A stretch of 56,198 bases of DNA from a virus: positions 1 through 56,198 of the IMG/VR virus record IMGVR_UViG_3300009103_000041. The stretch is one strand, 5' to 3'. The notes under the pieces were generated by a model. It saw nothing but the letters and a program-made list of their open reading frames with translations. It made no database searches and had not been told where the DNA came from. Shown here one piece after another: positions 9,743 to 48,057 of this stretch (its first letter is position 1; each line of letters begins with the position of its first letter). The translations under genes and the position numbers were made by a program.

Positions 9743-9774
9743 ATTATATCATAGTTTACTGCTTTTGTACATAG
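9743..9774 (-). promoter_or_regulatory. early-type promoter for rnh
   Basis: TGTACA (9766-9771) and TATAAT (9743-9748), 17 bp apart, in CTATGTACAA and TATGATATAATATA. The same CTATGTACAA variant occurs at 31572-31603. Confidence 0.65.
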
Positions 9775-10211
9775 TCTTCTGATAAATTTTTCACTGAACC
9801 ATATCCAATCTTAATAGCTATAATACCATTATAATTTTGTGGATTCAATAGAACATCCTCATCAAATTGTATTTTAGCTTCCATATAATTTGTCTCACCA
9901 CGTGTTTTGCATAAACAAATAATCTCACGTTTAAAATTTTCTTTGCCTAAGCCTTCTATATCCTCAGTGAGTCTCTTACTTGAACCCCAATAATCCTGCC
10001 AATCGGTCTCTTTAGCCTTATGCCTTTTATTTTTTCTACCTACGAGGGGTTTAAGCTTTCGTATTGTCCTGAAATACTTACGTCCGATGTAGTCATATCC
10101 GGTGACCAAGTTGGTAATGCGATACACAAAACCATAAAAGTCAGCAATATCAGCAGAAGTAAATTGTCGTTCATTATACGTCCAACTGGGGTCCGTCATA
10201 TTCTTCTGCAT
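9756..10211 (-). CDS. GIY-YIG nuclease-like protein
   Basis: The ATG at 10211 is preceded by AGGAGG with 5-base spacing and gives 151 aa. The first half reads YGFVYRITNLVTGYDYIGRKYF, a GIY-YIG pattern (here GFV...YIG), followed by an Arg/Lys-rich helix, WQDYWGSSK, and a later Glu in NYMEAKIQFDEDVL, where the family has its metal-binding Glu. It could be a free-standing nuclease related to homing endonucleases; it is not inside an intron here. Moderate certainty. Confidence 0.65.
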   Translation of the reverse strand: MQKNMTDPSWTYNERQFTSADIADFYGFVYRITNLVTGYDYIGRKYFRTIRKLKPLVGRKNKRHKAKETDWQDYWGSSKRLTEDIEGLGKENFKREIICLCKTRGETNYMEAKIQFDEDVLLNPQNYNGIIAIKIGYGSVKNLSEDYVQKQ

Positions 10212-10362
10212 CAAAGCCTCCTCTTTGCGCCCATTCTATATTTGCTCCACAAAATGGACAGTGAGTAGCTGGTGTATCCAACTCAATTGACTCAGTAGCA
10301 AATCCCATCTCATCCTTAACCATAACCTCAAAGGGTTGGCTATTACAATCATTACATATCAT
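10174..10362 (-). CDS. zinc-ribbon protein
   Basis: 62 aa with two Cys pairs, MICNDCNSQ and HCPFCGANIEW, forming a probable zinc ribbon, and an acidic tail. Its last 38 bases overlap the GIY-YIG gene and supply that gene's ribosome site. Function unknown. Confidence 0.65.
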   Translation of the reverse strand: MICNDCNSQPFEVMVKDEMGFATESIELDTPATHCPFCGANIEWAQRGGFDAEEYDGPQLDV

Positions 10363-10601
10363 AATCTTAATTCTCCTAATTGCATATGTGTCATTAACAT
10401 ATCATGACCACCTATATATTTTCCATCAATATATATCTGAGGAAATGTTCTGGCGTTTGGAACCGCTTTAAAAAAATCTTCTGGTGTCCAATTAGGTCCT
10501 TCAATATTTCTTTCCTCATAACTAATTTTTTTACTATCTAATAATGCCTTTGCTTTGGTACAAAGACTACAATTATTTTTACTCCATACTACTGCTCTCA
10601 T
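10359..10601 (-). CDS. glutaredoxin
   Basis: 80-aa glutaredoxin with the redox motif CSLC (residues 11-14), the TFPQIYIDGKYIGGHDM block (cis-Pro and glutathione-binding GG), and normal length. It overlaps NrdB by 4 bp, so its natural role is as hydrogen donor for the phage ribonucleotide reductase, as with T4 NrdC. The nearby IscA-like gene leaves a Fe-S role possible as well. Confidence 0.88.
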   Translation of the reverse strand: MRAVVWSKNNCSLCTKAKALLDSKKISYEERNIEGPNWTPEDFFKAVPNARTFPQIYIDGKYIGGHDMLMTHMQLGELRL

Positions 10602-11674
10602 AAGCTTAATCCCTCAAATGATTTTCTATTAACATCTTGTTTGACACCTCCGACAACATAAGATGTGATTTCTGTTTCTTGTGGTGCCACTTGGACAGCC
10701 CCACCACTTATCCATTTTTCAGTCCATGGAAGTGGGTTATGCATATGCACTGAGAATGGTACATGGTAATTAAGACTTTTAATTCTCTTTGCACCAATCC
10801 AACGCACATACTCTTTCAAAAGCTCAGTGTTTAAGCCAATCATTGAGCCATTACCAAATAGGTAATCACACCACTCCTCTTCTTGTATTAATGCATCTTC
10901 AAATAAATTCATTACTTGGTCATGTGTTTCTTCTTTAATTTTTTCAAAATCCTTATCATCTTTAATTAATTGTCTAATTATATTAAGTGATGCAGCTAAA
11001 TGCAAGTTCTCATCCCTTGCAATTAATTTAATTATTTTTGCGTTACCTTCCATTTGTTTTAACTCAGCAAATGCCCATGAACATGCAAAGCTTACATAAA
11101 ACCGTATTCCTTCTAATATGTATATAGAAATCATACAAAGGTATAATAATTTTTTATGTTTATAAGACCCAGTAGGTCCTTTATAATTAATTAGGTTATC
11201 ATAGTGTTCAGATATATCTTTGCCACAATCTAAAATTTCTGGTATAGACTTTATATCATCAAATACTTTAGATGGATTTGGATAAACATTTCTGATTAAA
11301 TGTGTGTATGAGCGAGAGTGAATGGTCTCAAAGAATGCCCAGGTCTCTATTAATAACTCTAGTTCTGGGTTACTCGCTATGGGTAATAATGCTAGGTCCG
11401 GTGACCTGCCCTGTACTGAATCTAAGAGTATTTGTCTTTTAAGGTTTGCTGTAAATATATGTTGTTCATTCTTTGTTAACTTACCAAAATCAATCTTATC
11501 CTTTGTGACATCTATCTCATCGGGTGTCCAATAAAAAGATAGCATCTTCTCATATAACTTTTGTAAGGCTGGGTATTTAACCACATCATATCTTGCTATG
11601 TCCACGCCCTCATCAAAAAATAATGTTTTATCTAAATGGTTTTTGGTGTTTATTTCAAATACTGATTTTTTCAT
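10598..11674 (-). CDS. nrdB: ribonucleotide reductase class Ia, beta subunit
   Basis: 358-aa radical-generating subunit. Diiron ligands and the radical Tyr are recognisable: NEQHIFTANL, ETIHSRSYTHLIRN (Glu, His and the equivalent of E. coli Tyr122), and ARDENLHLAASL (Glu...His). It pairs with NrdA at 12810-15104 and converts NDPs to dNDPs for phage DNA synthesis. Between the two subunits lie a tmRNA, an IscA-like gene and two membrane-protein genes. Confidence 0.95.
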   Translation of the reverse strand: MKKSVFEINTKNHLDKTLFFDEGVDIARYDVVKYPALQKLYEKMLSFYWTPDEIDVTKDKIDFGKLTKNEQHIFTANLKRQILLDSVQGRSPDLALLPIASNPELELLIETWAFFETIHSRSYTHLIRNVYPNPSKVFDDIKSIPEILDCGKDISEHYDNLINYKGPTGSYKHKKLLYLCMISIYILEGIRFYVSFACSWAFAELKQMEGNAKIIKLIARDENLHLAASLNIIRQLIKDDKDFEKIKEETHDQVMNLFEDALIQEEEWCDYLFGNGSMIGLNTELLKEYVRWIGAKRIKSLNYHVPFSVHMHNPLPWTEKWISGGAVQVAPQETEITSYVVGGVKQDVNRKSFEGLSL

Positions 11675-11680
11675 TTTTCA

Positions 11681-11992
11681 TCATACTGTAAAACTTTCTC
11701 CACAACCGCACCTTGCCCTTTCCTTTGGATTATAGAATTCAAAGCCTTCATTAAGACCTTTTTTCTTATGGTCTATTTCTGCGCCTTCTACATATACTTG
11801 GCTTTTTCTATCAATAACAATAGGAATACCTCTAACCTTAAAGACATCATCTTGGTCAGTTTCCATTATATTATATTCTAAGTGGTATGCCATACCTGAG
11901 CAACCAGTGCCTTTAACTAAAACTCTAAGCTGCATATTACCTGTGATTAAGGTATTTAATTTTTCAACAGCATTGTCGGTTAGGGTAATCAT
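11681..11992 (-). CDS. A-type Fe-S cluster carrier, IscA/ErpA-like
   Basis: 103 aa with the three conserved cysteines of A-type carriers: GTGCSGMAY (Cys31) and RCGCGESF (Cys95, Cys97). It hands Fe-S clusters to target proteins. Only 6 bp separates it from NrdB, and glutaredoxin follows. Together with the IscU homologue at 36820-37200 it suggests that the phage boosts host Fe-S assembly. Confidence 0.9.
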   Translation of the reverse strand: MITLTDNAVEKLNTLITGNMQLRVLVKGTGCSGMAYHLEYNIMETDQDDVFKVRGIPIVIDRKSQVYVEGAEIDHKKKGLNEGFEFYNPKERARCGCGESFTV

Positions 11993-12006: not shown

Positions 12007-12046
12007 AAAAAAAAGGACCGGAGTATTGGGTAATAAGGAACCCCGG
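12007..12046 (-). terminator. terminator after the tmRNA coding part
   Basis: CCGGGG pairs with CTCCGG (one G-U) around a loop of about 17 bases; GGTCC and eight T follow on the minus strand. It would end the permuted tmRNA precursor and insulate it from the IscA-like gene. Confidence 0.55.
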
Positions 12047-12290
12047 AGGAAACCCCAGCTAGCTATTAAGCAGCTAGCAAGTAATCGTGTTTGCCGATTA
12101 AATTTTTCATTTTTAAGCCTTTGTTGGCTGACGAGTCTTGGGCGTTTATGCTAACTAGTCGATGCTTTGTCTCCCCCATCAAATATATTCTTTATTTAAT
12201 ATATTTGACATACTACCAAAAATATATTTGGTGGAGGAGGTGGGAGTTGCACCCACGTCCTAATTGCCTCTACCCTTACCTTTACGTCGT
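12047..12290 (-). ncRNA. ssrA: circularly permuted (two-piece type) tmRNA
   Basis: Read on the minus strand, the acceptor half comes first. T arm GTGGG/CCCAC with a 7-base loop (12240-12256), 3' strand CTCCTCC, discriminator A, and CCA ending at 12229. An AU-rich spacer follows, then the 5' half starting GGGGGAG at 12177. The acceptor stem pairs perfectly over 7 bp, with G-U as the third pair, the alanine identity element. CTAGTT in the 5' half can pair with AATTAG in the acceptor half (helix-2 position). The tag reading frame ends in the loop of a GCTAGCT/AGCTAGC hairpin. The 3'-before-5' order is the permuted form known from alphaproteobacteria and some cyanobacteria. The 5' end of the acceptor piece is approximate. 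Confidence 0.88.
12066..12128 (-). other. tmRNA tag-peptide reading frame
   Basis: Resume codon GCC at 12128 follows CUCGUCA, much as GUC precedes the resume codon in E. coli ssrA. The frame encodes ANKGLKMKNLIGKHDYLLAA (20 residues) and stops at TAA TAG. The LAA end is the standard degradation signal. The tag is longer than the E. coli one. Confidence 0.8.
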
Positions 12291-12315
12291 TATTCACTTC
12301 ATTTTTGAATGAATG

Positions 12316-12543
12316 TTATGCATCATCATGTGAGAGTAATTTCCACAAAATTCCTGCGGCAATTAATCCAACTAAACCTGCGTCACCAAGCTGAGCTACG
12401 ATACCAATGATTGTACCAATGACGTCTCCGCCAAGGAAAGGTACGCTTCCACCAAAAACGATTTGCAAAACAATCGCTAAGCTTATTAGTGAAACACCAA
12501 TACCTGTTGCAGCGGCTACGCCGCTTGTGATTTTATCTAACAT
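12316..12543 (-). CDS. small two-helix membrane protein
   Basis: 75 aa with two long hydrophobic segments: GVAAATGIGVSLISLAIVLQIVF (about residues 8-30) and VIGTIIGIVAQLGDAGLVGLIAAGILW (41-67), and a charged SHDDA end. AGGAGAATAT precedes the ATG. Similar proteins occur in marine T4-like phages to my recollection. The shape would suit a holin, but there is no lysis gene beside it and I do not assign that role. Confidence 0.65.
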   Translation of the reverse strand: MLDKITSGVAAATGIGVSLISLAIVLQIVFGGSVPFLGGDVIGTIIGIVAQLGDAGLVGLIAAGILWKLLSHDDA

Positions 12544-12809: not shown

Positions 12810-15104
12810 TTATAAAGAACAGCTTTCACAGTACTCTTCATAGTCCTTTTGACTATCAAAGTCCTCTCTAGATAGGGTTGATTCATCCTCAGTGGTTAAA
12901 TCATTTGTATTAAAATAATATAATTGTTTACCACCATACTTATAAAATGTAATTAAATCCTTAAGCATTATAGACAATGGGATTTTATTATCTTCATATT
13001 GAGCTGGATTATAACTGGTATTAACAGATATTCCTTGGTCAACATACTTTTGAATTATAGCCATAATTTTAAGATAGCCCTCTGGTCCTTGTTGGTCCCA
13101 CAATAAATCATATTTATTTTTAAGGTTATACATATTAGGTACTACTTGAGGCATTACACCATCTTTAGATTGCTTATAAGATACAAGAGCCCTTGGTGGT
13201 TCTATACCATTGGTTGAATTACTTATCTGAGCTGAGGTTTCAGCCGGCATAACGGCCATTAAAGTTGAGTTTCTAATACCTTTTTTCTTAAGCTGTTCCC
13301 TTAATGCCTTCCAAGGCATCCTTTGTTTTGGTTTGACTAACTCATCCACCTCTTTTTTATAGGTGTCTATAGGTAAGATTCCGTGTCCGTACTTGGTCTC
13401 CATGTTCTTATAGCAACATCCTTGCTCTTTAGCCAAATCTGCAGAGGCTTTAATTAGATAATATGACCACGCTTCTGCATATTCATCAACGGTTTTTAAG
13501 GCCTCGTCATTATATTTAAGACCTCTTTTAGCTAAGAAATATGCAAGGTTAATTATACCAACACCCAAAGGTCTCCTATTCATTGTTGACCGCTGTGCCG
13601 CAATAATAGGATAGTTCTGATAATCCAATAAAGAATCTAAGGCACGTACTGCTAATTCACAGTAATGTTTAAATTGAGATGGTTCATTTATTAATCCCCA
13701 GTTAATTGCAGATAATGTACATAAAGATATCTCACCTTTATCAGTATCATCATAAGCTTCTAATCCATAACTTGGTAAATCTATTTCACAACATAAATTA
13801 CTTTGGTGAATAGGTGCTTGTTGTTCTATAAATGCACCATGTGTATTTGCATGGTCAACATTTTGTAAGTATATCCGACCAGTCTCTTTGCGTTCTGTAA
13901 GAAATTGTGAGAATACTTCTAAAGCTGGTAAAGATTTTTTCCTAATTGAATATGCCCTTTCATACTTCTCATATAATTCTTGGAACTTATCTTGGTCCTC
14001 AAAAAATGCATCATATAATCCTGGGACATCGTCTGGACTAAAGAATGTTATCTTACCACCAGTTAATAATCTCTCATACATAAGCTTATTAAATTGGAAT
14101 GCATAGTCCATATTACGTACACGGGTTTCTTCAGTACCTCTATTATTTTTAAGGACTACTAAGTCCTCAAATTCATAATGCCATACTGGTAGATATACAG
14201 TTGCTGCTCCACCTCGTACTCCACCTTGACTACAACTTTTAACTGCACTTTGAAAATATTTAAGGAATGGAATTAATCCAGTATGTACAACAGAGCCATC
14301 ACCAATGTGACTACCCACCGCTCTAATCTTTCCAGCATTAATTCCTAAGCCGGCTTTCTTACTAATATATTTAACAATGGATGTTGATGTTGCATTAATT
14401 GAGTTTAAAGAATCATTAGATTCTAATACTACGCATGAGGAAAATTGTCTTGTTGGAGTTCTACAACCAGCCATGATTGGTGTTGGAAGAGAGATATAAA
14501 ATTGACTAATAGCATTATAAAATTCTCTTATAAACTTCATACGTCTTCCATTATATCTAGCAAATAATGTCATAGCAATCATAATATATAATATCTGAGG
14601 TGTTTCGTATAGTGTGCCATCCGTTCGGTTTTGAACTAAATACTTTGATTGCATTTGCTCCATACCAGCATATGTGAATTCATCATCTCTGTTATGGTTA
14701 ATAATATGGCTATTAATATAATCTATTTCAGCCTCTGAATATTTATTTAATATTTCTGGGTCATATACACCAGCATCAATATTATGATTTATAATATCAA
14801 TAAGAGGCCAAGGGTCTTTGTCACCATATACTATTTTTTTAAGCTTATAATTAATAAGCCTTGCCGCTACAAATTGGTAGTTAGGTGTATTTTCAGTTAT
14901 GAGTTCGGCTGTGGATTTGATAAGAAGGTCATGGATTTTAATAGTTTCCATGTGTTCATATAGTTGAACATTAGCCCTAAGTTCTATTTCAGAAACAGAG
15001 ACACCAACTAAATCATCACAAGCCCATTCAAGAACGCGGTGGATTTTATTAATATTAAATGGCTCAGTTTCACCACTGCGCTTGGTTACAAAAATTGACG
15101 TCAT
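12810..15104 (-). CDS. nrdA: ribonucleotide reductase class Ia, alpha subunit
   Basis: 764-aa catalytic subunit. An N-terminal ATP-cone (FVTKRSGETEPFNINKIHRVLEWA) is followed by the barrel with 'AGCRTPTRQFSSCVV', 'NLCCEIDLPSY', 'GEISLCTLSAINW', the 'MPAETSAQISNSTNGIEPPRA' radical-transfer segment, and a redox-active C-terminal Cys pair (EEYCESCSL). There is no intein and no split, unlike some T4-like nrdA genes. It supplies dNDPs together with NrdB downstream. Confidence 0.96.
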   Translation of the reverse strand: MTSIFVTKRSGETEPFNINKIHRVLEWACDDLVGVSVSEIELRANVQLYEHMETIKIHDLLIKSTAELITENTPNYQFVAARLINYKLKKIVYGDKDPWPLIDIINHNIDAGVYDPEILNKYSEAEIDYINSHIINHNRDDEFTYAGMEQMQSKYLVQNRTDGTLYETPQILYIMIAMTLFARYNGRRMKFIREFYNAISQFYISLPTPIMAGCRTPTRQFSSCVVLESNDSLNSINATSTSIVKYISKKAGLGINAGKIRAVGSHIGDGSVVHTGLIPFLKYFQSAVKSCSQGGVRGGAATVYLPVWHYEFEDLVVLKNNRGTEETRVRNMDYAFQFNKLMYERLLTGGKITFFSPDDVPGLYDAFFEDQDKFQELYEKYERAYSIRKKSLPALEVFSQFLTERKETGRIYLQNVDHANTHGAFIEQQAPIHQSNLCCEIDLPSYGLEAYDDTDKGEISLCTLSAINWGLINEPSQFKHYCELAVRALDSLLDYQNYPIIAAQRSTMNRRPLGVGIINLAYFLAKRGLKYNDEALKTVDEYAEAWSYYLIKASADLAKEQGCCYKNMETKYGHGILPIDTYKKEVDELVKPKQRMPWKALREQLKKKGIRNSTLMAVMPAETSAQISNSTNGIEPPRALVSYKQSKDGVMPQVVPNMYNLKNKYDLLWDQQGPEGYLKIMAIIQKYVDQGISVNTSYNPAQYEDNKIPLSIMLKDLITFYKYGGKQLYYFNTNDLTTEDESTLSREDFDSQKDYEEYCESCSL

Positions 15105-36819: not shown

Positions 36820-37200
36820 TTACCTGTGTTGTTTTGATTTGTAATCTTTTATTGCCGTTTTAATTGAATCTTCAGCTAAAACTGAGCAATGGATTTTGAC
36901 TGGAGGTAAGTTAAGTTGTTCAACCACCTCTGTATTTTTTATTTGTGTTGCTTCATCAAGGGTCATACCTTTAAGCATTTCTGTTATAATAGAAGAAGAT
37001 GCTATTGCAGAACCACAGCCATAACATTTAAATACTGCATCCTGTATAATATCTTTCTCTACTTTAATTTGTAGCTTCATAACATCACCACAAGAAGGAG
37101 CACCTACCATACCAGTTCCAACATTTTTATCATTAATATCCATCTTACCCACATTGCGTGGATTGTTATAATGGTCTAAAACTGCGCCTGAATATGCCAT
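36820..37200 (-). CDS. iscU: IscU/NifU-type Fe-S scaffold
   Basis: 126 aa, complete. Start YSGAVLDHYNNPRNVG is canonical. The cluster ligands are present: GAPSCGDVM (Cys37 with Asp39), CYGCGSAIASSS (Cys62), and LPPVKIHCSVLAED (His104, Cys105), which also contains the chaperone-recognition motif LPPVK. It builds and hands over [2Fe-2S] clusters, normally fed by a cysteine desulfurase. None is encoded in this window, so the host enzyme would be used. The IscA-like gene is at 11681-11992. Confidence 0.94.
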   Translation of the reverse strand: MAYSGAVLDHYNNPRNVGKMDINDKNVGTGMVGAPSCGDVMKLQIKVEKDIIQDAVFKCYGCGSAIASSSIITEMLKGMTLDEATQIKNTEVVEQLNLPPVKIHCSVLAEDSIKTAIKDYKSKQHR

Positions 37201-37767: not shown

Positions 37768-38281
37768 CATATATTATATCACAGTTTGGTGTAATTGTAA
37801 ACAGTTTTATTAATTTATTTTGCTCTTTTATTTCTTCCATCATTTGTATATCATCTATATACCATTCATAATTTGGGTATGTTATATTCCAGCCACCTGC
37901 TTCTTGCCACCAATTAAAACATTCATTATTATCTCTAACTACTGCAACAATTTTACTTTCTGGAAATAACTCTACAATATCATTTAAGTAATATGCAAAA
38001 TTATGAGATAGTATTACTTTAGTTTGGTCTTTAGGTCCATTAAAACTTTTGTCGATTTCATCAATCCACATTTGTCTGGTACCAAAAGTAGAGCCTAACC
38101 AATTACCATATTGCATCTTTGGTCCATAGTAATTTCCTTTATGACCAGCATATTTATGATGTTTATATATTCTGTCAGGAGTACAGTCAGTCATATCTGC
38201 ATTATGCTCTTCTCTAATTTTTTGAGAAATACCACTCCACATACTTCCTGGAGCACCTGTTACAAAAATCCAGTTTTTCAC
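37763..38281 (-). CDS. sulfotransferase-like P-loop protein
   Basis: 172 aa from a GTG that overlaps the TctC stop (GTGA). The N-terminus WIFVTGAPGSMWSGISQKI has a P-loop resembling the PAPS-binding loop of sulfotransferases, and 'SKIVAVVRDNNECFNWW' resembles the second PAPS-binding block. No acceptor can be deduced. Its last codons contain the promoter elements of hsp20. Confidence 0.5.
   Translation of the reverse strand: MKNWIFVTGAPGSMWSGISQKIREEHNADMTDCTPDRIYKHHKYAGHKGNYYGPKMQYGNWLGSTFGTRQMWIDEIDKSFNGPKDQTKVILSHNFAYYLNDIVELFPESKIVAVVRDNNECFNWWQEAGGWNITYPNYEWYIDDIQMMEEIKEQNKLIKLFTITPNCDIIYV
37773..37804 (-). promoter_or_regulatory. early-type promoter for hsp20
   Basis: TTTACA (37796-37801), 17 bp, TATAAT (37773-37778) in TGTGATATAATATATG, lying inside the end of the sulfotransferase-like gene. 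Confidence 0.7.
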
Positions 38282-39363
38282 CCTCTTAAATCAACTCCTT
38301 CAAGCGCTGTTGGTACCTCAACTTCTATTACAAAATGGTCTTTAAATATGCTTGCTAATCCTAATGCTTCTGTATTAAAACGAATTAAATTCCTAAGAGC
38401 ATCTTCAGTAATGAATGACATAAGGGTATCTCTATGTGCATTACCTTCATCACCAATCTTCCATTCATATTTACCAACTTTAGCTTCAATAGCAGCTACT
38501 GCGTCTGGGTCTAAACTCATTTGATGTAAAGCATTCCTTAAAGCAAATGTATTTGGATTTCCTTTATTTACCCATAAGGCTTTTTGCATACCATCTCTAA
38601 ATGATTTGACAAGCTTATAAGCATCATAAAATTCTCCGCTTGGTGGTGCATCCCAAAGTTCTTCAAATAAAATTTCTAATTGGAATCCAGGATAGTTAGG
38701 GTCATCAGCATGACTTCCATCTGCTTGCAATATACCATGATGGAACCATATTTCTGCTTTATCATTTGGTTCAACATGTTTTTTATATGCAGCTGGGTTT
38801 TCTCTTGTACCATTTAGTTCACCGCGTTTGAATGCAAGTCTACGTTCACCGCCTGACATTCCATTAACCCAAGTCACATGCTCTTTAAAGCATGCAATAT
38901 AATAATCTATTGATGTAGATTTATTACCACATATTAACATGGTCATAGCAAAAGCTTCGGGAACCATACCCGAACCAGCAGCAAAACTTGGATATGTCAT
39001 ATCTGCTCCAATAGCTTTACCGGCTATAATATTTAAATTCATAAGACCAATTGAGTCATAATCATTATAGTCATAGTCAACATTCTCTTGTAAGAAGCTA
39101 ACTCCATTACCACCATGACTTACCATGACAATCTTATCAGATGTTCTTAAAGAGTTATGGAATTCATTAAAGCCAGGAATATCTCTTGCTCCTGGTATAT
39201 GTTTAATGGTTATATTTTCTCCTAAGAATGGTTCAAGTTGGGTGGCTATAATTTGAGCCCATTGGCTTGTTCCAGCTCCAGGTTTTTGTGGTACAACAAA
39301 GATATAATCTGCAAATACAGATGTTGATAATGTTAAAATTAAAAGTGCTAGTAGTTTTTTCAT
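38278..39363 (-). CDS. tctC: TctC-type periplasmic solute-binding protein
   Basis: 361 aa with a Sec signal peptide (MKKLLALLILTLSTSVFA). The mature start DYIFVVPQKPGAGTSQWAQIIATQLEPFLG matches the TctC/Bug family beginning (P..PGGG.D...R), and the body shows the two-lobe pattern with 'KIVMVSHGGNGVSFL' and 'FKRGELNGTREN'. These proteins capture carboxylates for the TctA permease. Its ATG overlaps the TctA stop (ATGA), so both are made together. Slightly longer than usual (about 320 aa). The ligand cannot be read from sequence. Confidence 0.85.
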   Translation of the reverse strand: MKKLLALLILTLSTSVFADYIFVVPQKPGAGTSQWAQIIATQLEPFLGENITIKHIPGARDIPGFNEFHNSLRTSDKIVMVSHGGNGVSFLQENVDYDYNDYDSIGLMNLNIIAGKAIGADMTYPSFAAGSGMVPEAFAMTMLICGNKSTSIDYYIACFKEHVTWVNGMSGGERRLAFKRGELNGTRENPAAYKKHVEPNDKAEIWFHHGILQADGSHADDPNYPGFQLEILFEELWDAPPSGEFYDAYKLVKSFRDGMQKALWVNKGNPNTFALRNALHQMSLDPDAVAAIEAKVGKYEWKIGDEGNAHRDTLMSFITEDALRNLIRFNTEALGLASIFKDHFVIEVEVPTALEGVDLRG

Positions 39364-40781
39364 GCGTACTCCAATTTGTTTTTCTTTATAGACAATGTTG
39401 CCATTGCTATAATTGTTATAATTAAAATAATAAATATTGGCCTAGTCATAAGAGTATCTATAGTATATAAAGCACTTAATTGTAGGGTCAATGTTTCTAC
39501 TTTTATGGCTAAGATGAATGCCATCAGCAAAGCCGGTCTACTATATTTATATTGCTTGCAAAAGACTCCAAGAGCAGAGCATAATATTAATATAGCATAG
39601 TCCTCCCAACCACCAGTGTATTGAGCACAAGCCCAAGTGATAAACACCACAAGGATTGGGAAATAATATTTATATGGCCAAGAAGATATCTTTGAAATGT
39701 ATCTATTAAACACAATGCATAATATACCTACTAAAACCGTAGCCCACATAAATCCAAATGTGAGACTGTCAAAAAATCTTGTATCATAAGCAAGGTCAGG
39801 CGTTCCTAATTCAAAACCTAATACCATAAATAAAGCCATTAGTACTGCAGCAAAAGAAGCTCCAGGGATTCCAAATAAAACTGTGGGAATCATTGATGTA
39901 GCCTTTTGAGAATTATTAGCTCCTTCCGAACCTATAACACCTCTTATATTTCCTTTACCAAATTCTTCATTAGGATTGGCAGCAACGGCTGAACCATACG
40001 CCATCCAATCTCCCATAGCACCACCAAGTCCTGGAAGGAAACCAATAAAGGCTCCTATTGCTCCACCTCTTATTGAATCCCATTTATATTTCCATGCGGC
40101 TTTAATTCCTTCTAATGTTTGGCCTGATGAATTATGTTTAGTTGTTGTTGCATCTCCTTTTCTCCAACCATCTAATATTTCAGGGAAGGCAAATAGACCA
40201 GCAACCATTGGCATAATTTGAATACCAGCTCCTAGATATTCCCAACCAAATGTCCACCTATCAGCATTTGTCACTGGGTCAGTGCCTATGCTTCCTAAGA
40301 ATAATCCAATTAATATAGCAATCAAGCTTCTAATCCAGAATTTATTAGATACAAATCCAACACAGGCAAGAGCTAACATAACAAAAGCCCACATCTCTGG
40401 GACGCCAAAGACCATCATAAGTTTTGTATACCAAGGGAGTAAGGCAAATGTAAGTGTTCCCCATAGGAGACCATTGACAGTTGAGGTTGTTATTGCAGCC
40501 GTAAGAGCATAGGTTGCTTTACCTTGCTTGGCTAGAGGGTGACCGTCGACCATTGTGGCCGCGGCTGAATTAGCACCTGGGATACCTAATAAGATTCCGG
40601 AGTATGTATCACCTGTGGTAGAGGCTGCTACTACAGCCATACAGAATATAACTCCTAAGTACGGGTCTGAGAAATAAGACATAAAACCAAATAGAACTAC
40701 AAGACCCGTGGTGGCTCCAGCAGCTGGTATCAATCCAATTATAAGCCCATACAATGTGCCTAATAACAATGCTAAAATCAT
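39360..40781 (-). CDS. tctA: TctA-type tripartite tricarboxylate transporter permease
   Basis: 473 aa with about 12 hydrophobic helices and the two TctA signature repeats: GLIPAAGATTGLVV ... TTGDTYSGILLGIPGANSAAATMVDGHPLAKQGKATYAL, and 'GFLPGLGGAMGDWMAYGSAVAANPNEEFGKGNIRGVIGSEGANNSQKA...GIPGASFAAVLMALF'. It imports di/tricarboxylates with TctC. The N-terminus is about 20-30 residues shorter than common TctA. No TctB lies beside it. It follows RegA by 10 bp inside the replication operon. The signatures are intact, so the gene does not look decayed. Confidence 0.93.
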   Translation of the reverse strand: MILALLLGTLYGLIIGLIPAAGATTGLVVLFGFMSYFSDPYLGVIFCMAVVAASTTGDTYSGILLGIPGANSAAATMVDGHPLAKQGKATYALTAAITTSTVNGLLWGTLTFALLPWYTKLMMVFGVPEMWAFVMLALACVGFVSNKFWIRSLIAILIGLFLGSIGTDPVTNADRWTFGWEYLGAGIQIMPMVAGLFAFPEILDGWRKGDATTTKHNSSGQTLEGIKAAWKYKWDSIRGGAIGAFIGFLPGLGGAMGDWMAYGSAVAANPNEEFGKGNIRGVIGSEGANNSQKATSMIPTVLFGIPGASFAAVLMALFMVLGFELGTPDLAYDTRFFDSLTFGFMWATVLVGILCIVFNRYISKISSWPYKYYFPILVVFITWACAQYTGGWEDYAILILCSALGVFCKQYKYSRPALLMAFILAIKVETLTLQLSALYTIDTLMTRPIFIILIITIIAMATLSIKKNKLEYA

Positions 40782-44834: not shown

Positions 44835-45926
44835 TTAATTTAAATTTAATGCTAAAAATAATGCTTCATCTTTAATCAATTCCTTATCAATATTTCTATC
44901 ACAATTACCATTCACTCTTTTATATGGTGAATTGGCAGGACTATCTATTGCCCACCAAGTAATTCCAATGTCTGCTGGATTTAAAGTATCATAAACAACT
45001 TCAACATACTTTGCTCTATCCTCTGGGTCTGGTCCAAGTCCATCACATTTACCATGTAATCCTATTTCACTTAATACCACTGGGACATTATATTTATTTG
45101 AGTAATTAATAAGTTGGCTCATATGTGATTTAACTTCACCTAGGTATGGCATAACTTTTAATTCCTCATGTGCATAATAATGAAAGCCATAAATAATATT
45201 TGTCCTATCAATAGGAAGTAATAAATTTGCTGGATTTCCATGCCTTGCCCATAAGCCTTTATGTATTCCTTCAATTATAATTGTTCTCCCAGGGGAGACT
45301 TTTCTTATAGCATCAACAATTTCTGTTGACCACTCTTGCCATATTTCTCTTTTATTCCAAGCTCTCATTTGTTCAAACTCAGGCTCATTTAAAACATTAA
45401 AGATTAAATTATTATTGGAGATATGCTTTAAGTCTTTTGATATGATTTCCCAAAGCTTATGATATGTCTCTCTAACTTCTTTATCATTTTCAAATGCTTC
45501 ATGCCAGCGTGTTTGGTTCATACCATCTGGTGCTTTATAAAAAGTTTCATATCCAGGCTTTAAGGAAATACCAAACACAGCATCAGGATGCTCAATTAAA
45601 ATCTTTTCAATTTGTTCTCCAATAGATTTAATTTTTTTATGGACTAATAATTCATCAATGGTCTTAAAGTCTTTACTTAAAAATCTATTAAATGCAATTA
45701 TATAAACATAATGAGACCAACCATCATCAAGGACTTGGTCAACTTTTAAGATATCTTCTGAGACTGTCAATGAAGCAAAGTCAATATCACTTGTCCAATT
45801 TGCACTTGAATTTGCTCCAACTTCTGTAAGTTGGTTCATAACATTATTTGGAATATTATTATCTTCCCAAGCACCAGCGTTGGCGTAATGAGAAAATAAT
45901 AATACTAAACTAAGCAGCAACCGCAT
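44835..45926 (-). CDS. secreted glycoside hydrolase family 5 protein
   Basis: The ATG at 45926 begins a clear Sec signal peptide (MRLLLSLVLLFSHYANA); an in-frame TTG lies 15 bases earlier. Mature protein follows the GH5 barrel: LIFNVLNEPEFEQ (acid/base Glu181), YGFHYYAHEE, and VPVVLSEIGLHG (nucleophile Glu287), then ITWWAIDSPAN. It should cleave a beta-glycan outside the inner membrane. 363 aa, single domain, no carbohydrate-binding module. The target could be host surface polysaccharide. It overlaps the end of the VWA gene by 17 bp, so it is co-transcribed with the CobS/CobT-like pair. Confidence 0.85.
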   Translation of the reverse strand: MRLLLSLVLLFSHYANAGAWEDNNIPNNVMNQLTEVGANSSANWTSDIDFASLTVSEDILKVDQVLDDGWSHYVYIIAFNRFLSKDFKTIDELLVHKKIKSIGEQIEKILIEHPDAVFGISLKPGYETFYKAPDGMNQTRWHEAFENDKEVRETYHKLWEIISKDLKHISNNNLIFNVLNEPEFEQMRAWNKREIWQEWSTEIVDAIRKVSPGRTIIIEGIHKGLWARHGNPANLLLPIDRTNIIYGFHYYAHEELKVMPYLGEVKSHMSQLINYSNKYNVPVVLSEIGLHGKCDGLGPDPEDRAKYVEVVYDTLNPADIGITWWAIDSPANSPYKRVNGNCDRNIDKELIKDEALFLALNLN

Positions 45927-48057
45927 CTGTAATTTTTCCAACTAATTGCTTAGTGGTTTTCTTAGTTCTATTGAATTTTTTAAATTCACGTTTAATGTCT
46001 TTCAATTCAGTTTTTCCATCTGGTAAAACAAACTCATCATCTGTAACTTTCTTATTAATTTTTATTACAAAATAGTTGTCATAACCTTTTGCTTTTTTGA
46101 ATTCAGAAAAACCTTCTTTTCTCCATTTTTTAATCATAGTTTGAAAATCAAGATAATCATTATATGGGTCATCATCTTTAATTCCATATATTCCTTGACC
46201 AAATGAAGAAGCATCAGTCGCTAAATGGAAACCCATTATAGTAGCACCAGTTAATTCTTTAAGACGCCCTAACATATTTTTATACATTTCTCTAGAACCA
46301 TCAGCTTTAATTAATTTACCATCAAAGTTTATTGTCTTTTTTCCAGAATGAGTTTTAACATCAGCATGCTTATCCTCTTCAATATAAATTCCATCAGGAG
46401 CACCATCAGTTAAGAACATCAAATTTGTATTTTGTATTCCATGTTTTTTAACAAAAGCCTTAGTCAATCTTGAGGCTAACATACATGTTTGGACAAGTGG
46501 AGTTGAACCCATTTGGTCTATTTTTGATAATTCCCTGCTAGACATATAATATGGAATTTGTCTAGAATATGAATGAGCTTTTGAAACTGCAAACATTGTG
46601 AAAGAAGCCTCATCAAAAGTTTTGTTATTCATATATGAAGAAAACATCTCAACAATTTTAGCACCTTTAATATCCATTTCACCTTCAGCTAATGTGACCT
46701 CTGGACGAATATCATCTGAGTAGTAAGAAGTGGTTGTGAATGAATATGCCTCAAAAGGTATATTAACTTTTCTACAAAACATTGCAATAGTAATTGCTTG
46801 GGCCATAACATCTTCTATGATTTCACACATTGAACCTGAAAGGTCTAGGAACATTATAATTCCATGTGATTTAGCTTGAGCTAATTTAGTAGTTGTTAAA
46901 AAGATATCCTCAGTCATTTTATATGAATGAAGCTTTAATGGGTCAAGCTTTCCAGATTTTGCTGTAGTAGCTTTTGAATATTCAAACGCTGCTTTCTTTC
47001 TTTCAAAATCCTTAGCTAATAATTTAGCTGTTGAATTATAACCTGCTTTAGATTTATTCCAATCTTCTTTACACTTATGTGAAACATAAGCACAATATTC
47101 ATAATCTCTTTCTGTTAATTTTTCAACCATAAATTTTTCACGAGCAGCTTCAGCTTCTTTATATGTGAATAACATATTTTTAAGATTAACATCAGAAATT
47201 CCAGAAGAAAACTGTGATTGCCTATTATTATCATAACGGTCAGTTTCTTTATCTAAAAGATTTTCTTCATTTTCTCTAAAAGTATCATCAGTGAAAGTTT
47301 CATGACCAGGCTCAATAGGTGCTTTATCTTTTTCACCATCACCTTCACCATCACCTTTACCACCTTCACTTTCTTGGTCGTCATCATCATCTTCTGGAGG
47401 AGTGGTACCTTTAGGATTTTCAGTTTCAACTTCATCATCGCCGTCCATATCATTACTTGGAAAATCAGCGCCTGTACCTTCAGGCATTTCATCTTCTTCC
47501 TCTTTATTTTCTTCAACAAAGTCATAGAATTTTTTACAAACATTAACAACGTCATCCCAAGTTTCAACTTTCATAGCTTCTTCAACTAATGGAGTTTCTT
47601 CATCTGAGAATTCAACTGGAATATAACCACGACCTTTTGAATGAACATTAAGTCTGTCCATAAGACCAGCCTCATTAATGTCCCTGTCATCTGTACCAAA
47701 TAGGTTATCATTAAAAAGTTTTTTATAACCATTTTTAAAACGACGAACTATTCCAGGATATGTCTCTTGGATTTTACGTTCAATACGGATATCTTCAACG
47801 ATGTTTAAATAAGCTCTAGGAATTTTTCCAATTTTCTTTTCAGAATCATGCCACCCATCAGCTGGGGTATAAAGAGCATGACCAACCTCGTGACCAACTA
47901 GTAAGTCATAAACATCCTTACCTTTGTCTTCCCAAAGTGGTAATCTTAAAACTCTATTTAAAACATCAAAGCTAGCTGTAGAATAATTACCATGTTGAAC
48001 TGATAAATTTTCTTTTGCTAAAAGCTTTGCTAAATATTCTTGTGCTGATAAATTCAT
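45910..48057 (-). CDS. CobT/VWA-type protein with HExxH motif
   Basis: Started at the ATG at 48057, which overlaps the AAA+ gene stop (TAATG); 715 aa. An N-terminal zinc-peptidase motif VGHEVGHALYTPADGWHD (His56-Glu57...His60) is followed by a long acidic low-complexity linker (about 190-265) and a C-terminal VWA domain with MIDAS motif IIMFLDLSGSMCEII and 'LMFLTDGAPDG'. This is the architecture of the peptidase/VWA partner of phage CobS-like ATPases. Probably remodels or cleaves a protein together with its AAA+ partner; there is no sign of cobalamin genes. Confidence 0.8.
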   Translation of the reverse strand: MNLSAQEYLAKLLAKENLSVQHGNYSTASFDVLNRVLRLPLWEDKGKDVYDLLVGHEVGHALYTPADGWHDSEKKIGKIPRAYLNIVEDIRIERKIQETYPGIVRRFKNGYKKLFNDNLFGTDDRDINEAGLMDRLNVHSKGRGYIPVEFSDEETPLVEEAMKVETWDDVVNVCKKFYDFVEENKEEEDEMPEGTGADFPSNDMDGDDEVETENPKGTTPPEDDDDDQESEGGKGDGEGDGEKDKAPIEPGHETFTDDTFRENEENLLDKETDRYDNNRQSQFSSGISDVNLKNMLFTYKEAEAAREKFMVEKLTERDYEYCAYVSHKCKEDWNKSKAGYNSTAKLLAKDFERKKAAFEYSKATTAKSGKLDPLKLHSYKMTEDIFLTTTKLAQAKSHGIIMFLDLSGSMCEIIEDVMAQAITIAMFCRKVNIPFEAYSFTTTSYYSDDIRPEVTLAEGEMDIKGAKIVEMFSSYMNNKTFDEASFTMFAVSKAHSYSRQIPYYMSSRELSKIDQMGSTPLVQTCMLASRLTKAFVKKHGIQNTNLMFLTDGAPDGIYIEEDKHADVKTHSGKKTINFDGKLIKADGSREMYKNMLGRLKELTGATIMGFHLATDASSFGQGIYGIKDDDPYNDYLDFQTMIKKWRKEGFSEFKKAKGYDNYFVIKINKKVTDDEFVLPDGKTELKDIKREFKKFNRTKKTTKQLVGKITDAVAA

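Follow-up and report, generated by a model that had tools for sequence, protein, structure and literature searches.

The window, by which is meant the whole IMG/VR record IMGVR_UViG_3300009103_000041 (56,198 bases, classed as linear, which is often the mark of a fragment), carries a permuted tmRNA gene on its minus strand between nrdA and nrdB. The parts of the gene and its neighbours are as follows.

12810-15104, minus strand: nrdA, class Ia ribonucleotide reductase large subunit
12316-12543, minus strand: 75-aa small membrane protein, directly upstream of the tmRNA (conserved neighbour)
12007-12289, minus strand: complete permuted tmRNA gene, U-tract included (12289-12066 by the RF04321 match; 3' module and probable terminator from sequence reading plus alignment)
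12229-12289, minus strand: tRNA-like domain, acceptor (3'-terminal) piece with CCA at its end (12289 is the start of the RF04321 match)
12240-12256, minus strand: T arm, 5-bp stem GUGGG/CCCAC with a 7-nt loop (both-side changes in 3 of 5 pairs)
12229-12239, minus strand: acceptor 3' strand CUCCUCC (12239-12233), discriminator A (12232) and CCA (12231-12229)
12178-12228, minus strand: 51-nt spacer from CCA to the 5' piece, with complementary ends (12 bp)
12171-12177, minus strand: acceptor 5' strand GGGGGAG, which opens the mRNA-like piece
12116-12129, minus strand: hairpin AGCC/GGCU before the tag, at the pseudoknot-1 position (12129-12126 with 12119-12116)
12069-12095, minus strand: predicted tag frame GKHDYLLAA with resume codon GGC (by frame comparison)
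12063-12068, minus strand: stop codon UAA, then UAG
12058-12078, minus strand: 7-bp hairpin with the stop codon in its loop (12078-12072 with 12064-12058)
12007-12046, minus strand: 3' hairpin CCGGGGU/ACUCCGG with CCUUAUUACC in its loop, then eight U (kept in relatives)
11681-11992, minus strand: A-type Fe-S protein (Fe-S_biosyn), directly downstream of the tmRNA (absent in some relatives)
10598-11674, minus strand: nrdB, ribonucleotide reductase small subunit

The Rfam model RF04321 (permuted tmRNA) matches 12289-12066 on the minus strand over its entire length (positions 1-213 of 213) with 79.1 bits, the cut-off being 47 (E = 1.5e-13), and this is the sole Rfam match within the window. ARAGORN can miss permuted phage tmRNA genes, as its run on the window did here. 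The covariance-model match bears out the first-pass annotation, which had read the region as a permuted tmRNA whose 5' half is preceded by the acceptor half with its T arm, the two halves being separated by the spacer at 12228-12178. As it had also proposed, the acceptor stem comprises 7 bp with G-U at pair 3 (G3-U70), all standard, in which CUCCUCC pairs perfectly with GGGGGAG (12177-12171) and the CCA ends at 12229; the stop codon lies in the loop of a 7-bp stem; and the gene closes with a putative U-tract terminator, consisting of a final 7-bp hairpin (12046-12040 with 12024-12018) and a run of eight U. This hairpin and the eight U probably form the RNA end and an intrinsic terminator, and the hairpin with its CCUUAUUACC loop is a beta-type 3' module. 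The fold energy of the tmRNA region (281 nt) lies 4.8 standard deviations below that of shuffles (z = -4.8). The RF04321 score of the window (79) is well below those of most bacterial permuted tmRNAs (113-162), and the activity of the tmRNA could thus be altered.

Two further elements were considered and rejected. The stability of a possible 5' leader hairpin near 12290-12320 does not exceed chance expectation (z = 0.2), and a pseudoknot suggested by eye between GGGGU (about 12056) and ACCC of the 3' loop is inconsistent with the changes seen in relatives.

Conservation of structure and tag frame

In an alignment of 18 clade members, 98.8% of the cells are paired in the 43-pair structure, compared with 94.5% in shuffles, and both sides have changed in 12 of the 43 pairs, located in six helices, compared with 5.9 in shuffles. 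The covariation score is 0.194 against 0.108 in shuffles, none of the 500 shuffles being as high, while slid versions of the structure drop to 32-52% paired and all score below the true one, a comparison which somewhat favours the true structure, since the window member served to derive it. Four arms receive support: the tRNA-like domain's long helix, the T stem, the stop-codon hairpin, which has both-side changes in 3 of its 7 pairs and 96.8% of its cells paired, and the pre-tag hairpin AGCC/GGCU, where the third pair is a CG in 5 sequences and a UA in 13. The acceptor stem is without variation inside the clade, G3-U70 being invariant in the 18 sequences, and its pair 6 covaries across clades (U-A in 73, A-U in 22 and C-G in 17 of 113 viral sequences, with one mismatch). 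Compensatory changes in related phages, which the first-pass annotation had expected, are therefore found both within the clade and, at the acceptor stem, beyond it. The spacer varies in sequence and in length (27-52 nt in the clade, counting the last base of CCA), but in every one of the 18 members its ends show complementarity of 5-12 bp, and such ends may hold the precursor together for processing.

The resume codon GGC (12095-12093) is preceded by UUAAUC, with an A at position -4, and opens the frame GKHDYLLAA. This GGC-start frame, of 9-10 codons, is intact in 18 of 18 aligned sequences, all ending in LAA, with the last tag codons varying mostly at third positions, and the A at -4, before a resume codon starting with G, is likewise invariant (18/18). 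The invariant A matches the rule known from E. coli, where the frame is set mainly by A86, which lies four bases ahead of the resume codon (PMC2481249). As the frame is open in every sequence and stands behind UUAAUC with the invariant A, the comparison shows the predicted tag to be one of 9 residues, GKHDYLLAA. A tag frame had been expected to persist in relatives, and it does so in this shorter form; the 20-residue tag first proposed, read from GCC (12128), has to be corrected. The window and 3 of 17 relatives have that longer frame open, but it is broken in the other 14 (13 frameshifts and one stop), its GCC sits inside the stem of the conserved AGCC/GGCU hairpin, and the conserved upstream context belongs to GGC, so there is hardly any chance that it is the true tag.

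Three outlying members (L143, L144 and L075) have an Asp resume codon and the tag DNNVYLLAA, and the region between the stop and the last hairpin is longer in them. The window tag does not begin with AND, as is common in bacteria, and by an automatic rule G is the first residue in 38 of 106 viral tags.

Place of the gene and the phage that carries it

The gene order in relatives is nrdA, membrane protein, tmRNA, an optional Fe-S gene, nrdB and glutaredoxin; the Fe-S gene is absent in L075, L120, L143 and L144, where the tmRNA is still there. A scan started from nrdB, and blind to the tmRNA, covered contigs whose NrdB is 86% or more identical and which extend far enough upstream, and the tmRNA lies just upstream of nrdB in 54 of these 54 close relatives. 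At about 75% NrdB identity it is present in 6 of 12 contigs, and in the tmRNA-free relatives L405, L406 and L408 the membrane protein lies near nrdB while Rfam gives no match. When the scan was started from the 75-aa membrane protein, the tmRNA was found in all 59 loci that also show nrdB, and of the 15 loci in which nrdB was not in view, 12 had no tmRNA. The tmRNA is stably inherited as part of the nrdA-nrdB region in one marine T4-like phage lineage, a gene fixed in place across uncultured phages.

Phage tmRNAs are easily written off as stray host genes, and here selection on both structure and tag is shown. A non-working remnant of a prophage integrated at a tmRNA gene, or of imprecise excision, would be conceivable, as tmRNA genes commonly serve as integration sites and gene exchange with a prophage was suggested by Buchholz et al. 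for the Methylophilales phage Melnitz (PMC9004378). Such an origin is nevertheless very improbable, since the gene is complete, has compensatory changes and keeps its tag intact in all relatives, stands at the same place in the 54 contigs of a T4-like phage lineage, and is accompanied by no integrase among the window genes scanned (a subset of the ORFs).

The window encodes gp32, gp43, a DnaB-like helicase, UvsX, SbcC/SbcD-like gp46/47 and class Ia NrdA and NrdB, and thus belongs to a T4-like phage. Its DNA polymerase has Phage C48C1 (49.8%) and cyanophages as nearest isolates, and its gp32 cyanophages and Melnitz. As no close isolate was found by DNA polymerase, gp32, NrdB and the Fe-S protein (best about 46-62%), the host is left uncalled.

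Several other genes deserve mention. Close homologues of the 75-aa protein without nrdA, nrdB or the tmRNA nearby occur in L278, L279, L283, L284, L286, L336-L341 and L343, some of which are contigs of more than 100 kb, and the small protein thus has a second context. The region 38278-40781 of the window encodes the membrane subunit of a TctA transporter (PF01970, E = 9e-96) and, after it, a 361-aa protein whose start resembles a signal peptide. This second protein has no Pfam match and no match in 50,697 phage records and is possibly a TctC-type binding protein; an organic-acid uptake system borne by a phage would be unusual. The window also contains two Fe-S assembly proteins, namely a NifU_N/IscU-like scaffold (36820-37200) and the A-type carrier (11681-11992), a SegE-type GIY-YIG endonuclease (9756-10214) directly downstream of nrdB and glutaredoxin, and a GH5 cellulase-like protein (44835-45941).

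Lineage type and known phage tmRNAs

The beta_tmRNA model (RF01850) gives the window 64.2 bits over its full length against a cut-off of 84, and among relatives L130 exceeds this cut-off with 88.9 bits and L072 reaches 83.9. The alpha_tmRNA model (RF01849) gives the window 48.3 bits, under the cut-off of 50, with a match over part of its length (58-192 of 355). In 15 of 16 clade members beta outscores alpha, L143 being the exception (alpha 54.7 versus beta 46.5). The 3' module of the clade, CCUUAUYACC, is similar to the beta form CCUUGUUACC and unlike the alpha form with AACAGAA; the beta form is also present in a genome of the same class as a Granulosicoccaceae genome (L210). By model scores and motif the tmRNA of the clade is beta-like.

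The first-pass annotation had linked the permuted form to alphaproteobacteria (and some cyanobacteria) and the phage to a probable alphaproteobacterial host, and had named the alphaproteobacterial model as the search to make, in which the window falls below the cut-off. Descent from a SAR11-type tmRNA, together with a SAR11 host, appears rather improbable: the outlying L143 favours the alpha model and the SAR11 phage HTVC008M has an alpha-type permuted tmRNA, but the latter lies at a different locus, and the preference of the 15 other members, the L130 score and the 3' module all point to the beta type. The tmRNA type is itself weak evidence for the host, because the type of the Melnitz tmRNA does not match that of its host (PMC9004378), so a SAR11 host taken by itself is possible.

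The clade shares with the tmRNAs described by RF04321 and RF01850 the order of parts, the T arm, the G3-U70 acceptor, the spacer, the tag frame and a 3' module with a CCUUGUUACC-like loop. It differs from them in an A-U at acceptor pair 6 (CUCCUCC/GGGGGAG), a Gly (or Asp) resume codon and a tag of 9-10 residues without AND. No permuted tmRNA with this acceptor variant was found in 84,980 species genomes scanned with an exact pattern, by which variants would be missed. The only two matches are both one-piece tmRNAs with a chance downstream GGGGGAG, and were rejected as a bacterial source of the variant.

Permuted tmRNAs of phages are a kind already known, and the addition made here is the present clade, with its location, beta-like type and Gly-start tags. 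The two-piece tmRNA of Melnitz was described in 2022 by Buchholz et al., who grouped it with alphaproteobacterial tmRNAs (PMC9004378). The first-pass view that a permuted phage tmRNA is unusual holds in part; it fails in so far as 53 of 133 distinct phage tmRNAs are two-piece, 50 of the 53 being aquatic (PMC9004378), and a pattern scan of IMG/VR found at least 120 stretches with the permuted-tmRNA pattern in viral contigs (L003-L122). The commonest tag among the matches listed (L003-L122) is ANESYALAA (11), which is one residue from ANESYAIAA of the bacterial genome L186, perhaps SAR11.

The Pelagibacter phage HTVC008M contains a permuted tmRNA (KC465899.1 145161-145370; L002 2987-3196) which is absent from its GenBank annotation, is of alpha type (83.8 bits) and has ANFNEYALAA as its tag by reading, while the tag of the Melnitz tmRNA (MZ577097) reads ANDNYVPVDYALAA. 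Both resemble the window gene in being permuted tmRNAs of marine T4-like phages of Kyanoviridae. However, theirs adjoin the late-transcription coactivator and are alpha-type or alpha-like, whereas the window gene lies between nrdA and nrdB and is beta-like. The window tmRNA belongs to a phage lineage of its own, and the differences in type and locus suggest that marine T4-like phages acquired or moved a permuted tmRNA at least twice. The tmRNAs of the mycobacteriophage Bxz1 group and Bacillus phage G are also phage-encoded, but are one-piece and not permuted. The tmRNA of phage DS6A, likewise phage-encoded, differs in being TLD-only, without a tag frame (PMC4131195).

Predicted role in ribosome rescue

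The window very probably carries a phage-encoded, permuted and functional tmRNA, as judged from its sequence and that of its relatives. SmpB was sought in the window, a 140-kb relative, HTVC008M and phage C48C1 and none was found, an absence which is provisional as the window and the 140-kb relative may be incomplete; host SmpB must then serve. The earlier suggestion that the phage took over or replaced host ribosome rescue is thus not supported, as the tmRNA must work with host factors. We give a probability of about 0.82 to the reading that the gene is a functional two-piece tmRNA of beta-like type, kept in the nrdA-nrdB region of the phage as a supplement to ribosome rescue.

The tmRNA would be transcribed with the ribonucleotide-reductase genes and end at its own 3' hairpin and U-tract. 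The precursor would then fold so that the two acceptor strands pair, and host tRNA-processing enzymes would remove the spacer, as in known permuted tmRNAs. The two pieces would remain paired and be charged with alanine by host AlaRS, as predicted from the G3-U70 present in the sequence, and the charged tmRNA would bind host SmpB and EF-Tu and enter ribosomes stalled on broken mRNA. Translation would resume at GGC (12095) with the addition of GKHDYLLAA, whose C-terminal LAA would direct the product to host proteases. The likely benefit would be extra rescue capacity in infection, when mRNA turnover is high, supplementing and not replacing the host system.

An LAA end is read by ClpXP-type proteases, and its retention in the tag speaks against an RNA which would by its amount displace host tmRNA on SmpB and divert the tagged proteins to another fate; the conservation of the full tag frame and the stop hairpin, needless for a pure decoy, speaks against it as well. 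Such a takeover of the host system is unlikely, although it would accord with the missing AND start and the share of G-starting viral tags (automatic rule), with the acceptor variant, of which the bacterial genomes scanned yielded no permuted example, and with the inhibition of tmRNA by the TLD-only phage RNA of DS6A or its like (PMC4131195; PMC11915505). It is possible, if doubtful, that the tmRNA represents a phage-only lineage kept in the ribonucleotide-reductase region, its acceptor variant having no permuted counterpart in the bacterial genomes scanned and its tag (G-N/K-x-D-Y-L-L-A-A) being read abnormally by host adaptors, in which case the phage would control the fate of rescued proteins.

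One group of relatives (L138 and the near-identical L139-L142) has genomic CCU instead of CCA at the acceptor end, and the CCA of these tmRNAs would need completion by a host enzyme.
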